Positions 4,960 to 58,920 of a stretch of DNA of 64,000 nt are shown here, in pieces. Where the stretch lies: contig NZ_JAYMGZ010000002.1 in the NCBI RefSeq assembly GCF_037078405.1, positions 496,001-560,000 on the forward strand. The letters are read 5' to 3'. How positions within the stretch are numbered: position 1 is the stretch's first letter; each line of letters opens with the position of its first letter. The translations under genes were made by a program, and so were the position numbers. The DNA comes from Haloarcula sp. DT43. Its GTDB lineage: Archaea > Halobacteriota > Halobacteria > Halobacteriales > Haloarculaceae. The notes beneath the pieces are model-generated. The model saw only the letters and a list, made by a program, of their open reading frames with translations. It did not search any database and was not told where the DNA came from.

Positions 4960-5051
4960 AGTCTCTGTTTAAAAACTCCGAATAGGCAGTTCGTCGGGCA
5001 GTACTGTCGTTATCGGACCGGAGCAACGGAACACGCAAAACTATTTCGTAA

Positions 5052-6224
5052 TCAGTTACCGGCGCGACTGGACAGATGGGCACCGAGTTCGTCGGCGACA
5101 CGGCCGCCGAGCCCCTGTTTGTCCCCGACGTACTCCGCCGCCGTCCCGTCGTCGACGAGCAGCGCCCGCGTCTCCTCGGCACCCATCACGCTCGCGTCGT
5201 TTGCGACCACGAAGGCCAGCCCGGCCCGTTCGCGTATCTCACGGGCGCGCTCGACCAGCGTCTCGTCGTCGCCCGCGGTCTCGACCTTGAAGCCGACGAT
5301 GGGGAGGTCCGGGTGGTCAGACCGAACGGTGTCGATGAGCTTCGGTGTCGGTTCGAGCGTCAGCGTCAGCTCCGCCTGCCCGCTCTTGATTTTCTCGGGG
5401 GCCTGCTCGACGGTGTAATCCGAAATCGCCGCCGCCGAGACCAGCGCGTCGGCCGCGTCGGCGACCCGACGGGTAGCTGCCGTCATCTCCGCGGCCGACT
5501 CGACCTGCTCGACGGTCGCGTAGGGAACGTCGGGGCCGTCGTGGACGAGCGTCACGTCGGCCCCGCGGGCGTAGCAGGCCCGCGCGACGGCCCGCCCGGT
5601 CCGCCCCGAGGACCGGTTCGAGAGCGTCCGCACGGGGTCGACCGACTCCGTGGTCGCCCCCGCAGTCACGATGACGTGCTCGCCTGCAAGCGGTCGGTCG
5701 CCCGCGGCCCGGGCGGTCGCCGTGACGATGGCCTCCTCGGTGGCGATTTTGGCCTTCCCCTCCTCGATTCGCGGGTCGACGAACTCGACGCCCCAAGACT
5801 CGACGCGGTCGATCGCCGACAGCACGCCGGGGTGGTCGTACATCGGCTCGTGCATCGCTGGCGCGACCACGACCGGCACGTCCGCGCCGAGGGCGGTCGT
5901 CGCACACGTCGTCACGGGCGTGTCGTCGATTGCCGCGGCGACCTTCCCGACGGTGTTTGCCGTCGCCGGCGCGAGCACGAACACGTCACCCCAGCCCGAC
6001 CGCCCACAGAGCTCGACGTGCTCGACGCTCCCCGTAATCTCGGTGATCACGTCGTCGTCCGTCGCAAACGAGAGCGCCCACGGATGGATGATACCCGTCG
6101 CGCTGTCGGTCATCACCGCCCGGACGGACGCCCCCTGTCGTCGGAGTTCGTGTGCGAGCTCCACCGTCTTGACGGCCGCGATGGACCCCGACACCCCCAG
6201 AACGACGTTGACTCCGGTCAGCAT
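5052..6224 (-). CDS. coaBC: bifunctional phosphopantothenoylcysteine decarboxylase/phosphopantothenate-cysteine ligase
   Basis: A 390-residue CoaBC (Dfp) enzyme catalysing two steps of coenzyme A synthesis: CTP- or ATP-dependent joining of phosphopantothenate to cysteine, then FMN-dependent decarboxylation. The N-terminal CoaC flavoprotein (about 1-180) has GVSGSIAAVKTVELAHELR, the histidine segment SVEHVEL and the APAMHEPMYDHP loop. The C-terminal CoaB domain has TAGATTESVDPVRTLSNRSS (about residues 188-207) and the lysine-containing EPTPKLIDTV. The ATG at 6224 was preferred to upstream starts because family similarity begins at LTGVNVVLGVSGSIAA. It lies alone on the minus strand; the gap of about 90 bases before the Mrp operon holds no gene. 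Confidence 0.95.
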   Translation of the reverse strand: MLTGVNVVLGVSGSIAAVKTVELAHELRRQGASVRAVMTDSATGIIHPWALSFATDDDVITEITGSVEHVELCGRSGWGDVFVLAPATANTVGKVAAAIDDTPVTTCATTALGADVPVVVAPAMHEPMYDHPGVLSAIDRVESWGVEFVDPRIEEGKAKIATEEAIVTATARAAGDRPLAGEHVIVTAGATTESVDPVRTLSNRSSGRTGRAVARACYARGADVTLVHDGPDVPYATVEQVESAAEMTAATRRVADAADALVSAAAISDYTVEQAPEKIKSGQAELTLTLEPTPKLIDTVRSDHPDLPIVGFKVETAGDDETLVERAREIRERAGLAFVVANDASVMGAEETRALLVDDGTAAEYVGDKQGLGGRVADELGAHLSSRAGN

Positions 6225-54621: not shown

Positions 54622-56013
54622 ATGGCAGAGAGCCGGACCTTCACCGGACTGCTCGCCGCGACCGCCGTCGGCGTGTACTTGCTCGTCCTCGCCGGCGCGA
54701 CGACCACGCTCACGGACGCGGCGGCAGCCTGTACTACCTGGCCGCTGTGTGACGGACCAGTCGCGGTGACGAACACGGCCCTGCTGGTCGCCTGGGGCCA
54801 TCGGCTCGTCGCGGCCGCCGTCGGTCTCCTCGTTGTCGCCACGGCCGTCGCCGGGCTCCGCTCCGACTGTCGCGGCCGCGTCACGGCGGCCGTCCTGCTG
54901 GGGGCCGTCCTGTACCCGGTCCAGATAGCGCTCGGTGCCCTGGTCGCGACGACCACGGCGGCGACGCTCCCCGGTGCCCACCTCGCGCTGGGCATGGGCA
55001 TCTTCGGTGCGTTCGTGCTGGCCCTGGCGTGGCACCTCGAAGCCGAGACGGGCAGCGACGACGAATCCCCCGTCAAGAACCCGACGCCCGCGCCGGAGCC
55101 GACCGGGGACGACAGCCCCGACCCGACGCCGTCGCTCAGTCTCCGTGACCGCCTCGTCGGGACCGCCGCGGCGTACTTCCGCCTGATGAAGCCCCGGCTC
55201 ATGTGGCTCCTGTGTCTGGTCGCCGCGGCCGGGATGGCACTCGCCGCCGGGCAGACGCTCGCCGTTCGGACCGTGTTGCTCACGCTGGGCGGCGGCGTCC
55301 TCTCTATCGGCGCGTCGGGGACGTTCAACCACGTCCTCGAGCGTGACATCGACAAGCGAATGGACCGGACCTCCGACCGCCCCATCGCCACCCACCAGAT
55401 TCCGGTCCGGAACGCGCTGGCTTTCGGCCTGCTCCTGTCGTTCGCCTCGCTGTGGCTGTTCTGGCAAGTGAACGCGCTCGTGGCGCTGCTCGGGCTGACC
55501 GCAATCGTGTTCTACAGCGTCATCTACACGCTCGTGTTGAAGCCCAACACCGTCCAGAACACCGTCATCGGCGGGGCGGCCGGCGCGCTGCCGGCGCTCA
55601 TCGGCTGGGTCGCCGCCGACGGGTCGGTCGGCCTCCCGGGCGTCGTCCTCGCCGTCGTCATCTTCCTGTGGACGCCGGCGCACTTCTACAACCTCGCGCT
55701 CGCGTACAAGGACGACTACGAGGCCGGCGGCTTCCCGATGATGCCGGTCGTCCGCGGCGAGACCGAGACCCGAAAGCACATCGTCTACTACCTCGGGGCG
55801 ACGCTCGTCTCGGCGGGCGTCCTCGGCGTCCTCACGTCGCTCGGCTGGCTGTTCGCCGCCACGTCGGTGCTGCTCGGGGCGGTGTTCCTCTGGGCCGTCG
55901 TCCGGCTCCACCACGAGCAGACCGAGGCGGCGGCGTTCCGGGCGTTCCACGCGTCGAACGCCTACTTGGGGGCCGTCCTGCTCGCCATCGTCGTCGACGC
56001 ACTCGCACTATGA
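54622..56013 (+). CDS. ctaB: heme o synthase (CtaB) with N-terminal CtaA-like four-helix domain
   Basis: A 463-residue fusion. Residues about 1-145 have four helices with WPLCDGP, LLVAWGHRLVAAAVGLLVV and LPGAHLALGMGIFG; these match half of heme A synthase (CtaA/COX15), including a histidine in each of two helices. An acidic, Pro-rich linker (about 150-175) leads to the UbiA-type CtaB (about 190-463), with FNHVLERDIDKRMDRTSDRP (about 235-254) and LALAYKDDYEAGGFPMMPVV. CtaB farnesylates heme B to heme O. The extra half may form a dimeric heme A synthase-like unit or a heme-binding site. The next gene overlaps it (ATGA). Confidence 0.93.
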   Translation: MAESRTFTGLLAATAVGVYLLVLAGATTTLTDAAAACTTWPLCDGPVAVTNTALLVAWGHRLVAAAVGLLVVATAVAGLRSDCRGRVTAAVLLGAVLYPVQIALGALVATTTAATLPGAHLALGMGIFGAFVLALAWHLEAETGSDDESPVKNPTPAPEPTGDDSPDPTPSLSLRDRLVGTAAAYFRLMKPRLMWLLCLVAAAGMALAAGQTLAVRTVLLTLGGGVLSIGASGTFNHVLERDIDKRMDRTSDRPIATHQIPVRNALAFGLLLSFASLWLFWQVNALVALLGLTAIVFYSVIYTLVLKPNTVQNTVIGGAAGALPALIGWVAADGSVGLPGVVLAVVIFLWTPAHFYNLALAYKDDYEAGGFPMMPVVRGETETRKHIVYYLGATLVSAGVLGVLTSLGWLFAATSVLLGAVFLWAVVRLHHEQTEAAAFRAFHASNAYLGAVLLAIVVDALAL

Positions 56014-56742: not shown

Positions 56743-56982
56743 ATGAGCACTGTCGAAATCGAATACTGCGTACCGTGTGGGTTCCGCGGACGGGCACTGG
56801 ACGTCCAGCGGGCGATTCTGTCGGGGCTCGAACGCGAACTCGACAGCGTCAGGCTGGTCATGGGCGACCACGGCGTGTTCAGGGTCAGCGTCGACGACGA
56901 GGTGGTCTACGACAAAGCCGACGCCGGCGACGAGTTCGACGTGGACGCCATCGTGCGTGCGGTCCGCTCGCAGGCCGTGTAG
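56743..56982 (+). CDS. Rdx (SelW/SelT/SelH-like) thioredoxin-fold protein
   Basis: A 79-residue protein of the Rdx family. The redox site CVPC is at residues 9-12 (VEIEYCVPCGFRGRALDVQ), where animal homologues have CxxU. The remainder fits the short thioredoxin-like fold (VRLVMGDHGVFRVSVDDEVVY). The ATG at 56743 is chosen for the family start. The role of archaeal Rdx proteins is not established; a thiol-redox function is likely. Confidence 0.85.
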   Translation: MSTVEIEYCVPCGFRGRALDVQRAILSGLERELDSVRLVMGDHGVFRVSVDDEVVYDKADAGDEFDVDAIVRAVRSQAV

Positions 56983-57038
56983 GGCCCTGCTGTCGGCGGG
57001 TCACCGCGGTAACTTTCGTGCATGCCAAAGTGTACCAC

Positions 57039-57057
57039 ACAACAAACTATTTGTTGT
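57039..57057. promoter_or_regulatory. perfect 8-bp inverted repeat over the promoter of the zinc-ribbon gene
   Basis: ACAACAAA-CTA-TTTGTTGT. The centre CTATTTG lies about 30 bases before the ATG at 57080, at the TATA position, so a protein bound here would compete with TBP. Followed six bases later by a second repeat (57063-57080). Confidence 0.5.
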
Positions 57058-57062
57058 TCTGC

Positions 57063-57080
57063 TTTGACATTTGTGTCAAA
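57063..57080. promoter_or_regulatory. perfect 7-bp inverted repeat overlapping the start codon of the zinc-ribbon gene
   Basis: TTTGACA-TTTG-TGTCAAA; its last base is the A of the ATG at 57080. If the mRNA is leaderless, the repeat covers the transcription start. It could be an operator or, in a leadered RNA, a hairpin at the start codon. Confidence 0.5.
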
Positions 57081-57187
57081 TGGCGACGAAAACCGAGTTC
57101 TGTGACCACTGTGGGGAGACCAACCCGGTCGTCGTGGACAAGCCGTGGCTTCCGGCGGTCTGTCTGCAGTGCGGTCGGAACGTGTAA
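57080..57187 (+). CDS. 35-residue zinc-ribbon microprotein
   Basis: The frame encodes 35 residues with two CxxC knuckles: CDHCG (Cys8, Cys11) and CLQCG (Cys28, Cys31), 16 residues apart, so one zinc could be bound. The middle is NPVVVDKPWLPAV. Haloarchaea encode many such small zinc-finger proteins, several of which act in stress or signalling. Support for a real gene: third positions mostly G or C, the conserved zinc spacing, a TATA-like element about 30 bases upstream, and two perfect inverted repeats exactly at the promoter and start. It lies 55 bases before an ABC exporter operon in the same direction. The function is unknown. Confidence 0.75.
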   Translation: MATKTEFCDHCGETNPVVVDKPWLPAVCLQCGRNV

Positions 57188-57241
57188 CGCCGGTCGCCCG
57201 AGAACGGAACTGCTTTCGGCCACCCGACCGGACGGGGGCGC

Positions 57242-58183
57242 ATGGACGAGGTACTGGTCGCGTCGGACGTGCGGCGACGCTACGGCGACACGGTCGCGCT
57301 CGACGGCGTCTCGCTGACGGCGACCGCCGGGGAGGTGCTCGCGCTGGTCGGTCCAAACGGGGCCGGCAAGACCACGCTCGTGCGGGCGTTGACCGGCACG
57401 ACGGACGCGACCGGCGAGGTGCGGCTGTTCGGCCAGTCGCCCAGGGCGGTCGCCCGCGACCGAATCGGGCTGTTGCCACAGTCGTTTGCGCCCCACGAGC
57501 GGCTGACCGCGCGGGAACTGCTTGCGTACTACGCCGGCCTCTACGACGAGACCCGGGACGTCGAGGCCGTGCTCGATGACGTGGGTCTGGCCGACACCGC
57601 CGGCACGACCTACGAGAACCTCTCGGGCGGCCAGCAGCGGCGGACCTGCGTCGCCACGGCGCTCATCAACGACCCGGACCTCCTCGTGCTAGACGAGCCG
57701 ACCACCGGCATCGACCCGGCCGGTCGGCGCGATCTCTGGCGGCTGCTCGAGGGGCTGGCCGACCGCGGCGTGACGATACTCGTCACGACACACTACATGG
57801 AGGAGGCCCAGCGCCTGGCGGACCGCGTCGGCCTTCTCGCCGACGGGTCGCTCGTCGCCCTCGATTCGCCGGACCGACTCGTCGCCGAGCACGGCGGCGA
57901 CAGCCGCCTCGTCGTGGACGGGACCTTCGACGAGGCCGCCGTCTCGGCCATCGACTACCCGGCGGAGACGGCACTTCAAAACGGCCGGCTGGTCGTCTAC
58001 GGTATCCGCCCGGAGTCTATCGGCAGCGTCACGGAGCAACTCACACAGGCGGGCATCGAGTACGACAGCCTCACCTGGAAACAGCCCGACCTGGAGGACG
58101 TGTACCTCGAACTCACTGGCACGGCCGTCGGCCAGCGCGGCGAGCCACGCCGGACAGAGCCAGCAGCGGGTGGTGTCCGATGA
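57242..58183 (+). CDS. ABC exporter ATP-binding protein (DrrA/NatA-like)
   Basis: A 313-residue ATPase of the multidrug/lipid exporter type. Walker A GPNGAGKTT (about 37-45), signature NLSGGQQRRTCVATAL (about 125-140), Walker B LLVLDEPTTGIDP (about 147-159), and the switch region TTHYMEEAQRLADRV. The C-terminal 90 residues form the extra domain of DrrA-type proteins. The last base of its stop overlaps the start of the permease gene (ATGA). It may export a toxic compound or lipid; the substrate is unknown. Confidence 0.93.
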   Translation: MDEVLVASDVRRRYGDTVALDGVSLTATAGEVLALVGPNGAGKTTLVRALTGTTDATGEVRLFGQSPRAVARDRIGLLPQSFAPHERLTARELLAYYAGLYDETRDVEAVLDDVGLADTAGTTYENLSGGQQRRTCVATALINDPDLLVLDEPTTGIDPAGRRDLWRLLEGLADRGVTILVTTHYMEEAQRLADRVGLLADGSLVALDSPDRLVAEHGGDSRLVVDGTFDEAAVSAIDYPAETALQNGRLVVYGIRPESIGSVTEQLTQAGIEYDSLTWKQPDLEDVYLELTGTAVGQRGEPRRTEPAAGGVR

Positions 58184-58920
58184 GCCGGCTCGGCCGCCTC
58201 ACCTCGGAGACCCGCGCCGCGTCGCTGGCCTTCCTCCGGCGGCGAACGGCCGTCTTCTTCACGTTCTTCTTCCCGGTCATCATCGTCGTCATCTTCGGCG
58301 TGCTGGTCCAGACTCAGCCGGGCGGCGGCGGGCTGTTCACCGAGCCGCCGAGCTTCTACGCGCCGGGGTACCTGGCCGTCGTCGTCCTGTTTACGCCGCT
58401 GTCCCGGGTCGGCAGCGAGGTGGCCCGCCACCGGGACGGGAACCGCTTCGAGAAACTGGCGACGACGCCGCTTACCCGCACCGAGTGGCTGCTCGCACAG
58501 ACCCTTGTCAACGTCGTCATCATCGGCATCGCCGGCCTCCTGATTCTGGGCCTGATGGTGTGGCTCACCGGCGCGACCATCCGACCGTCGGTCCTGTTGC
58601 TCCCCTTCGTCGGCCTCGGCGTCGCGCTGTTCTGTGCCGTCGGCGCGATGCTCGGCAGTCTCGCGGACTCACAGGACGGCGTCATCGCGGCGAGCAACGG
58701 CCTCGCGCTCCCGCTGCTTTTCCTCTCGGAGACGTTCGTCCCACAGACGCTCCTGCCCGCGTGGCTGCCGACGTGGCTGTCGCCGCTGACGTACTTCTCG
58801 CGGGGCGTGCGGGCGGCGACCACGGGGACCGGCGAACCGCTCGGACCGCTCGCCGTTCTCGCGGCCTGTGCCGTCGTCGGCTTCGTCGTCGGCGCGCGGC
58901 TCCTCCCGCGGACGGACTGA
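58180..58920 (+). CDS. ABC-2 type exporter permease
   Basis: A 246-residue membrane protein with six helices, typical of ABC-2 permeases (DrrB/NodJ). Features: the N-terminal amphipathic stretch RRRTAVFFTFFFPVIIVVIF (about 21-40), the cytoplasmic loop VARHRDGNRFEKLATTPLTR (about 82-101), and the late LSETFVPQTLLPAWLPTWLSPLTYFSRGVR. It is translationally coupled to the ATPase (overlap ATGA). Confidence 0.92.
   Translation: MSRLGRLTSETRAASLAFLRRRTAVFFTFFFPVIIVVIFGVLVQTQPGGGGLFTEPPSFYAPGYLAVVVLFTPLSRVGSEVARHRDGNRFEKLATTPLTRTEWLLAQTLVNVVIIGIAGLLILGLMVWLTGATIRPSVLLLPFVGLGVALFCAVGAMLGSLADSQDGVIAASNGLALPLLFLSETFVPQTLLPAWLPTWLSPLTYFSRGVRAATTGTGEPLGPLAVLAACAVVGFVVGARLLPRTD

Follow-up and report, generated by a model that had tools for sequence, protein, structure and literature searches.

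A 35-codon frame lies directly behind two perfect inverted repeats and ahead of an ABC exporter operon in the window, the whole stretch of 64,000 nt of Haloarcula DNA that was analyzed. The locus raises three questions: whether so short a frame is a gene, whether the repeats control it, and whether its product serves the exporter. The earlier note on this DNA had read tight regulation from the two palindromes and proposed a regulatory or sensing role for the exporter, with an independent microprotein as the alternative.

Zinc-ribbon frame and predicted protein

The frame is at positions 57080–57187 (+ strand) and translates to MATKTEFCDHCGETNPVVVDKPWLPAVCLQCGRNV followed by a stop codon. The product has 35 residues and four cysteines in the spacing CxxC-x16-CxxC, as the earlier note described. 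The two cysteine patterns are CDHCG and CLQCG, with 16 residues between the CxxC motifs, which gives the signature CxxC-x16-CxxCG. Orthologues are present in 16 of the 31 other Haloarcula genomes, with identities of 71–91%. All four cysteines and the stretch DKPWLP are unchanged in 17/17 Haloarcula sequences, i.e., the window and the 16 congeners. Most substitutions fall at third codon positions, and the pN/pS ratio of 0.22 indicates purifying selection. Because 16 congeners hold orthologues and pN/pS is 0.22, the ORF is far beyond chance, and by these sequence comparisons it is judged to be a genuine, conserved gene.

The product is probably a metal-binding protein. An AlphaFold2 model of the 35-mer shows a compact two-stranded ribbon with a mean pLDDT of 88. 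A study of H. volcanii cautions that AlphaFold2 models do not settle whether a metal is bound, and it found no zinc in 5 of its 14 purified C(P)XCG proteins (PMC11241148). A Foldseek search of the PDB with the model gave no significant match, and the mechanism therefore rests on analogy. The best Pfam match of the window protein, DZR, fails with 19.5 bits against a cut-off of 27.3, every NCBIfam match is under its cut-off, and none of the zinc-ribbon families DZR, Zn_Ribbon_1, HVO_2142, HVO_0416 and S27e reaches its curated cut-off. PRDM9 zinc fingers appeared among PDB sequence-profile matches; no single stretch passes alone, and these were treated as repeat artefacts.

A search of a plasmid collection with the 35-mer gave one distant match, in Halarchaeum (51% identity). 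This relative is on a plasmid of Halarchaeum sp. CBA1220 (locus L094, positions 5001–5105), where no gene is listed, and it is directly followed by an AIM24-family gene. The phage search returned only a weak partial match, in two records of a single Lactobacillus phage, and the PHROGs search gave no useful result.

Promoter-like block

Alignment of the 15 syntenic orthologues reveals a conserved promoter-like block of 32 nt at positions 57038–57069 (+ strand; −42 to −11). The mean identity in the block is 95.6%, compared with 70.7% immediately before it and 76.7% in the ten bases that follow, and 22 of its 32 columns are invariant. The block is read as a BRE, a TATA (CTATTTRTT) and a TGTGACA element; in order, it has ACAACAAA at the BRE position, CTATTTATT as the TATA and then GTTYTGSTGTGACA. 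The sequence TTAT (TTGT in the window) is centered 27–28 nt ahead of the ATG. The haloarchaeal consensus sequences are CGAAA for the BRE and TTWT for the TATA, and 72% of protein-coding transcripts in H. volcanii are leaderless (PMC4983044). Since the geometry of the block matches these published promoters, the simplest reading is that positions 57038–57069 are probably a leaderless promoter with the start at the ATG.

The TGTGACA element between the TATA and the start codon (TTTGACA in the window, positions 57063–57069) is kept in 15/15 syntenic orthologues. This conservation exceeds the needs of a BRE and TATA, so a gene-specific regulation through the element is possible. A search of 32 genomes with the TATA-to-TGTGACA block, with 3 mismatches, found no gene besides the zinc ribbon and one stray site, in genome G016.

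Inverted repeats

Repeat 1 has an 8-3-8 arrangement, ACAACAAA-CTA-TTTGTTGT, at positions 57039–57057 (arms 57039–57046 and 57050–57057, + strand) and extends over the BRE and TATA. Repeat 2 is 7-4-7, TTTGACA-TTTG-TGTCAAA, at positions 57063–57080 (arms 57063–57069 and 57074–57080, + strand), and its last base is the A of the ATG. The arms of both are 100% complementary in the window, and to this extent the first description of the repeats holds.

The symmetry does not extend to the relatives. Repeat 1 is perfect in 2 of the 15 syntenic species, and 11 of the 15 have at least 7/8 Watson-Crick pairs. The fifth pair is C-A in 13/15 species, where an A in the right arm breaks the symmetry (TTTATTGT form in 11 of those 13); the window has a G in place of that A, as does G021, inside the TATA box. 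Repeat 2 is perfect in the window species only, and the other 14 score from 2/7 to 6/7. With G-T counted as paired, 87.5% of the cells are paired in repeat 1 and 66.7% in repeat 2. The true register of repeat 1 pairs far better than slid registers, and the covariation of partner bases shows no excess, as 50 of 500 column shuffles reach it. The repeats are absent in G014 and G020, two congeners that have the gene elsewhere. A 32-genome search with repeat 1 (2 mismatches) found only the zinc-ribbon gene and one stray site, again in G016.

Dinucleotide shuffling of the 66-nt promoter region yields one or more perfect 8-nt arms (loop 0–10) in 4.6% of cases, one or more 7-nt arms in 14%, and both in 0.6%. 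By these rates the repeat pair is unusual at any one promoter and unremarkable across the several thousand genes of a genome; if the 66-nt region is typical, a couple of dozen promoters per genome should have such a pair, a frequency measured on the window and local shuffles only. The palindromes were rejected as operators, being perfect in 2/15 and 1/15 promoters with covariation equal to that of shuffles. By alignment, the repeats appear for the most part to be an ordinary promoter, symmetric by chance in the window species. The proposal of tight regulation from two perfect palindromes is thus not sustained, and it is the promoter-like block that is conserved instead. A striking palindrome of a single genome dissolves once orthologous promoters are aligned.

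Gene neighborhood and history

The upstream neighbor is an Rdx (SelT/SelW/SelH-like) gene at positions 56743–56982 (+ strand). Downstream are an ABC exporter ATPase gene at positions 57242–58183 (+ strand), whose best NCBIfam match, DrrA, is below cut-off, and an ABC-2 type exporter permease gene at positions 58180–58920 (+ strand) with a weak DrrB match. The exporter operon is in the same direction as the zinc ribbon, and the distance to it is as claimed, with a gap of 54 bases to the ATPase start. The ATPase gene has a promoter-like block of its own, GAGAACGGAACTGCTTTCGG, at positions 57200–57219 (+ strand), 23–42 bases ahead of its start. This block is near-invariant in 27 Haloarcula loci and is present with or without the zinc ribbon, 12 of the loci having no such gene at the site. 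It reads GAGAACGGAAC[T/G]GCTTTCGG in most loci, and its distance to the start codon is that of the zinc-ribbon block. Farther upstream, positions 54622–56013 hold a single ORF of 463 residues with a weak CtaA/COX15 match in the N-terminal part and a strong heme O synthase (CtaB) match in the C-terminal part; this ORF overlaps the start of the DUF7546 membrane protein.

The order CtaA/B, DUF7546, Rdx, zinc ribbon, ABC ATPase is found in 15 species. In 12 congeners the zinc ribbon is missing between the DUF7546/Rdx region and the ATPase gene; no orthologue was found in 11 of these, and G014 has the gene elsewhere. The exporter is distant from the zinc-ribbon gene in both G014 and G020, where the adjoining gene is one that we take to be trmY. 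A tree of CtaB and DUF7546 unites the 15 syntenic carriers in a single clade (100/100), with G014 and G020 as its sister (99/95). This pattern is consistent with a single acquisition in the genus and a single move, in either direction, and the gene is by these comparisons clade-specific within Haloarcula. Its absence from relatives that keep the flanking genes speaks against the exporter link and does not refute the gene itself, because the gene is clade-specific. The presence of the zinc-ribbon gene is independent of the exporter and the link between them is weak, so that the suggested tie is not upheld: 12 congeners keep the exporter without the gene, the exporter has its own block, and two congeners carry the gene in another context. 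The synteny beside the exporter is stable in 15 species, and transcription may run on from the zinc-ribbon gene into the ABC genes. The independent microprotein, the alternative of the earlier note, is borne out in that the frame is zinc-ribbon-like, real, and has its own promoter-like block.

A family of PW-motif ribbons

A family profile was built from the Haloarcula orthologues and distant matches, and 391 genomes of the haloarchaeal class were sampled in the scan. Matches at E <= 1e-5 occur in 81 of the 391, although those near the threshold are weak and unrelated ribbons are possibly among them. Most members read from the DNA have 35–53 aa, the spacing CxxC-x16-CxxCG, and PW[L/Q] ahead of the third cysteine. 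The window protein has the same fixed x16 spacing, PW before the third cysteine and CG after the fourth Cys pattern. No Pfam or NCBIfam model is matched at cut-off among the family members scanned. A pattern scan shows carriers in Haloarcula, Natrinema and Haloterrigena. The gene neighbors of distant members vary, and homologous frames stand in unrelated contexts; the gene calls around them were made with a simple script and are approximate.

Some haloarchaea have several PW-motif ribbons per genome, with six matches in G363 and three in G380, some of them clustered (loci L095–L098, from G363, G380, G144 and G403). Family matches in G039 and G144 have an in-frame stop and may be decayed. In several distant genomes (loci L087, L095, L097 and L098) the ribbon is near an ORF that resembles, as judged by eye, a small membrane protein, and most of these loci also have one that resembles a DUF457-like hydrolase.

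Interpretation of the locus

The explanation that we consider probable is a one-gene cassette for a zinc-ribbon adaptor or regulator that is leaderless, acts in trans and is not dedicated to the exporter. The cassette would be about 200 bp, consisting of its own promoter block and the 35-residue frame, with the Rdx gene on one side and the exporter operon's promoter on the other, in one Haloarcula clade. Its product would be one zinc ribbon and belong to the CPxCG-related small zinc-finger class of haloarchaea. The leaderless mRNA probably starts at the ATG or within a few bases of it, and the repeats would coincide with the BRE/TATA region and with the bases from there to the start site, made symmetric in the window species by sequence drift. 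Most likely, a single metal ion organizes the fold of the protein, which would act in trans as a small adaptor or regulator with a nucleic acid or a protein as its binding partner. The trans-acting role is considered most likely because of the analogy with Brz and with the microproteins of H. volcanii.

A different role would be that of a local regulator in the manner of Brz. Here the target of the microprotein would be the ABC exporter operon next to it and, by way of the repeat that overlaps the TATA, perhaps its own gene as well. The stable gene order and strand relative to the exporter in 15 species and the conserved TGTGACA agree with such a role, and so does the precedent of Brz, whose leaderless gene codes for a small zinc finger, directly precedes bop, regulates it, and has an imperfect inverted repeat over its own TATA (PMC2253796). 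Yet congeners without the zinc ribbon keep the exporter and its promoter-like block, G014 and G020 keep the gene away from the exporter, the repeat/TATA block occurs nowhere else in 32 genomes apart from the stray G016 site of each search, and the repeat symmetry is not maintained. We regard a local role as unlikely, and retain it because Brz regulates its neighbor from a leaderless gene with an imperfect TATA repeat. Much the same doubt applies to an independent microprotein whose TATA-overlapping repeat is a true operator, where another factor represses by blocking TBP/TFB. The pairing of repeat 1 in most species, its superior register and the 22 invariant block positions would be expected of an operator, but the C-A fifth pair, a covariation no better than shuffles and the lack of a second site in 32 genomes except the one with 2 mismatches in G016 are not, and conservation of the BRE/TATA alone explains the kept bases. 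That the ORF is spurious, and the conservation that of an RNA or DNA element, is very improbable. Chance ORFs are many in high-GC genomes and the frame has only 35 codons, but the pN/pS value, the dominance of third-position changes, the invariant cysteines and the homologous frames in unrelated contexts all argue against it.

Beyond the trans-acting cassette favored here, a broader proposal is speculative and rather doubtful. The PW-motif ribbons would be a distinct, uncatalogued haloarchaeal family of minimal trans-acting regulators, mobile as single-gene promoter-plus-ORF cassettes; one cassette would have settled between two housekeeping genes in a Haloarcula clade, with its unusually constrained promoter (TGTGACA) under a dedicated regulator.

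Comparison with known small zinc finger proteins

CPxCG-related small zinc fingers are defined by two Cys/His patterns 7–40 residues apart, at least one of them CPxCG-like (CPxCG, CPxCx or CxxCG), in fewer than 100 residues (PMC2253796). The window protein, with its pattern spacing, its CxxCG and a length of 35 residues, fits this published class by sequence. With the proteins of the class (PMC2253796; PMC6562870; PMC11241148) it shares a length of <100 aa, a spacing of 16 residues between two CxxCG patterns, a haloarchaeal origin and a single ribbon. It differs in belonging to a sub-family with fixed x16 spacing and PW[L/Q], which is unmodelled in the searched libraries. The weak sub-threshold profile matches of the zinc ribbons of ribosomal protein eS27 and the adenylate kinase lid over the window ribbon are far under the cut-offs and represent only a generic ribbon resemblance.

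Deletions of small zinc-finger genes in H. volcanii gave a phenotype in 12 of 16 cases (PMC6562870), and loss of HVO_0758 or HVO_2753 alters swarming, biofilm and the transcriptome (PMC10716476). These two proteins are small CxxC ribbons like the window protein (PMC10716476), but HVO_0758 has an N-terminal charged helix whereas the window protein is a bare ribbon. Brz of Halobacterium salinarum (OE3104F) regulates transcription, and its gene is leaderless, with the TATA box some 25 bp ahead of the start (PMC2253796). The window gene likewise encodes a putative small zinc finger and precedes a possible target on the same strand. Its transcript would be leaderless too, with the TATA-like block centered 27–28 nt ahead of the ATG. 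An inverted repeat overlaps this TATA as in Brz, but it is perfect in only 2 of 15 orthologous promoters and shows no excess covariation. In size, ligands and layout, Brz has 60 aa and Cys/His ligands, and the window protein 35 aa and four cysteines. The neighbor of the window gene is an exporter that persists without the zinc ribbon, which argues against a requirement of the Brz type for the neighbor's transcription. The locus gives an archaeal microprotein class with very few known targets a further member that is well conserved and testable, as well as a clear signature for a sub-family.
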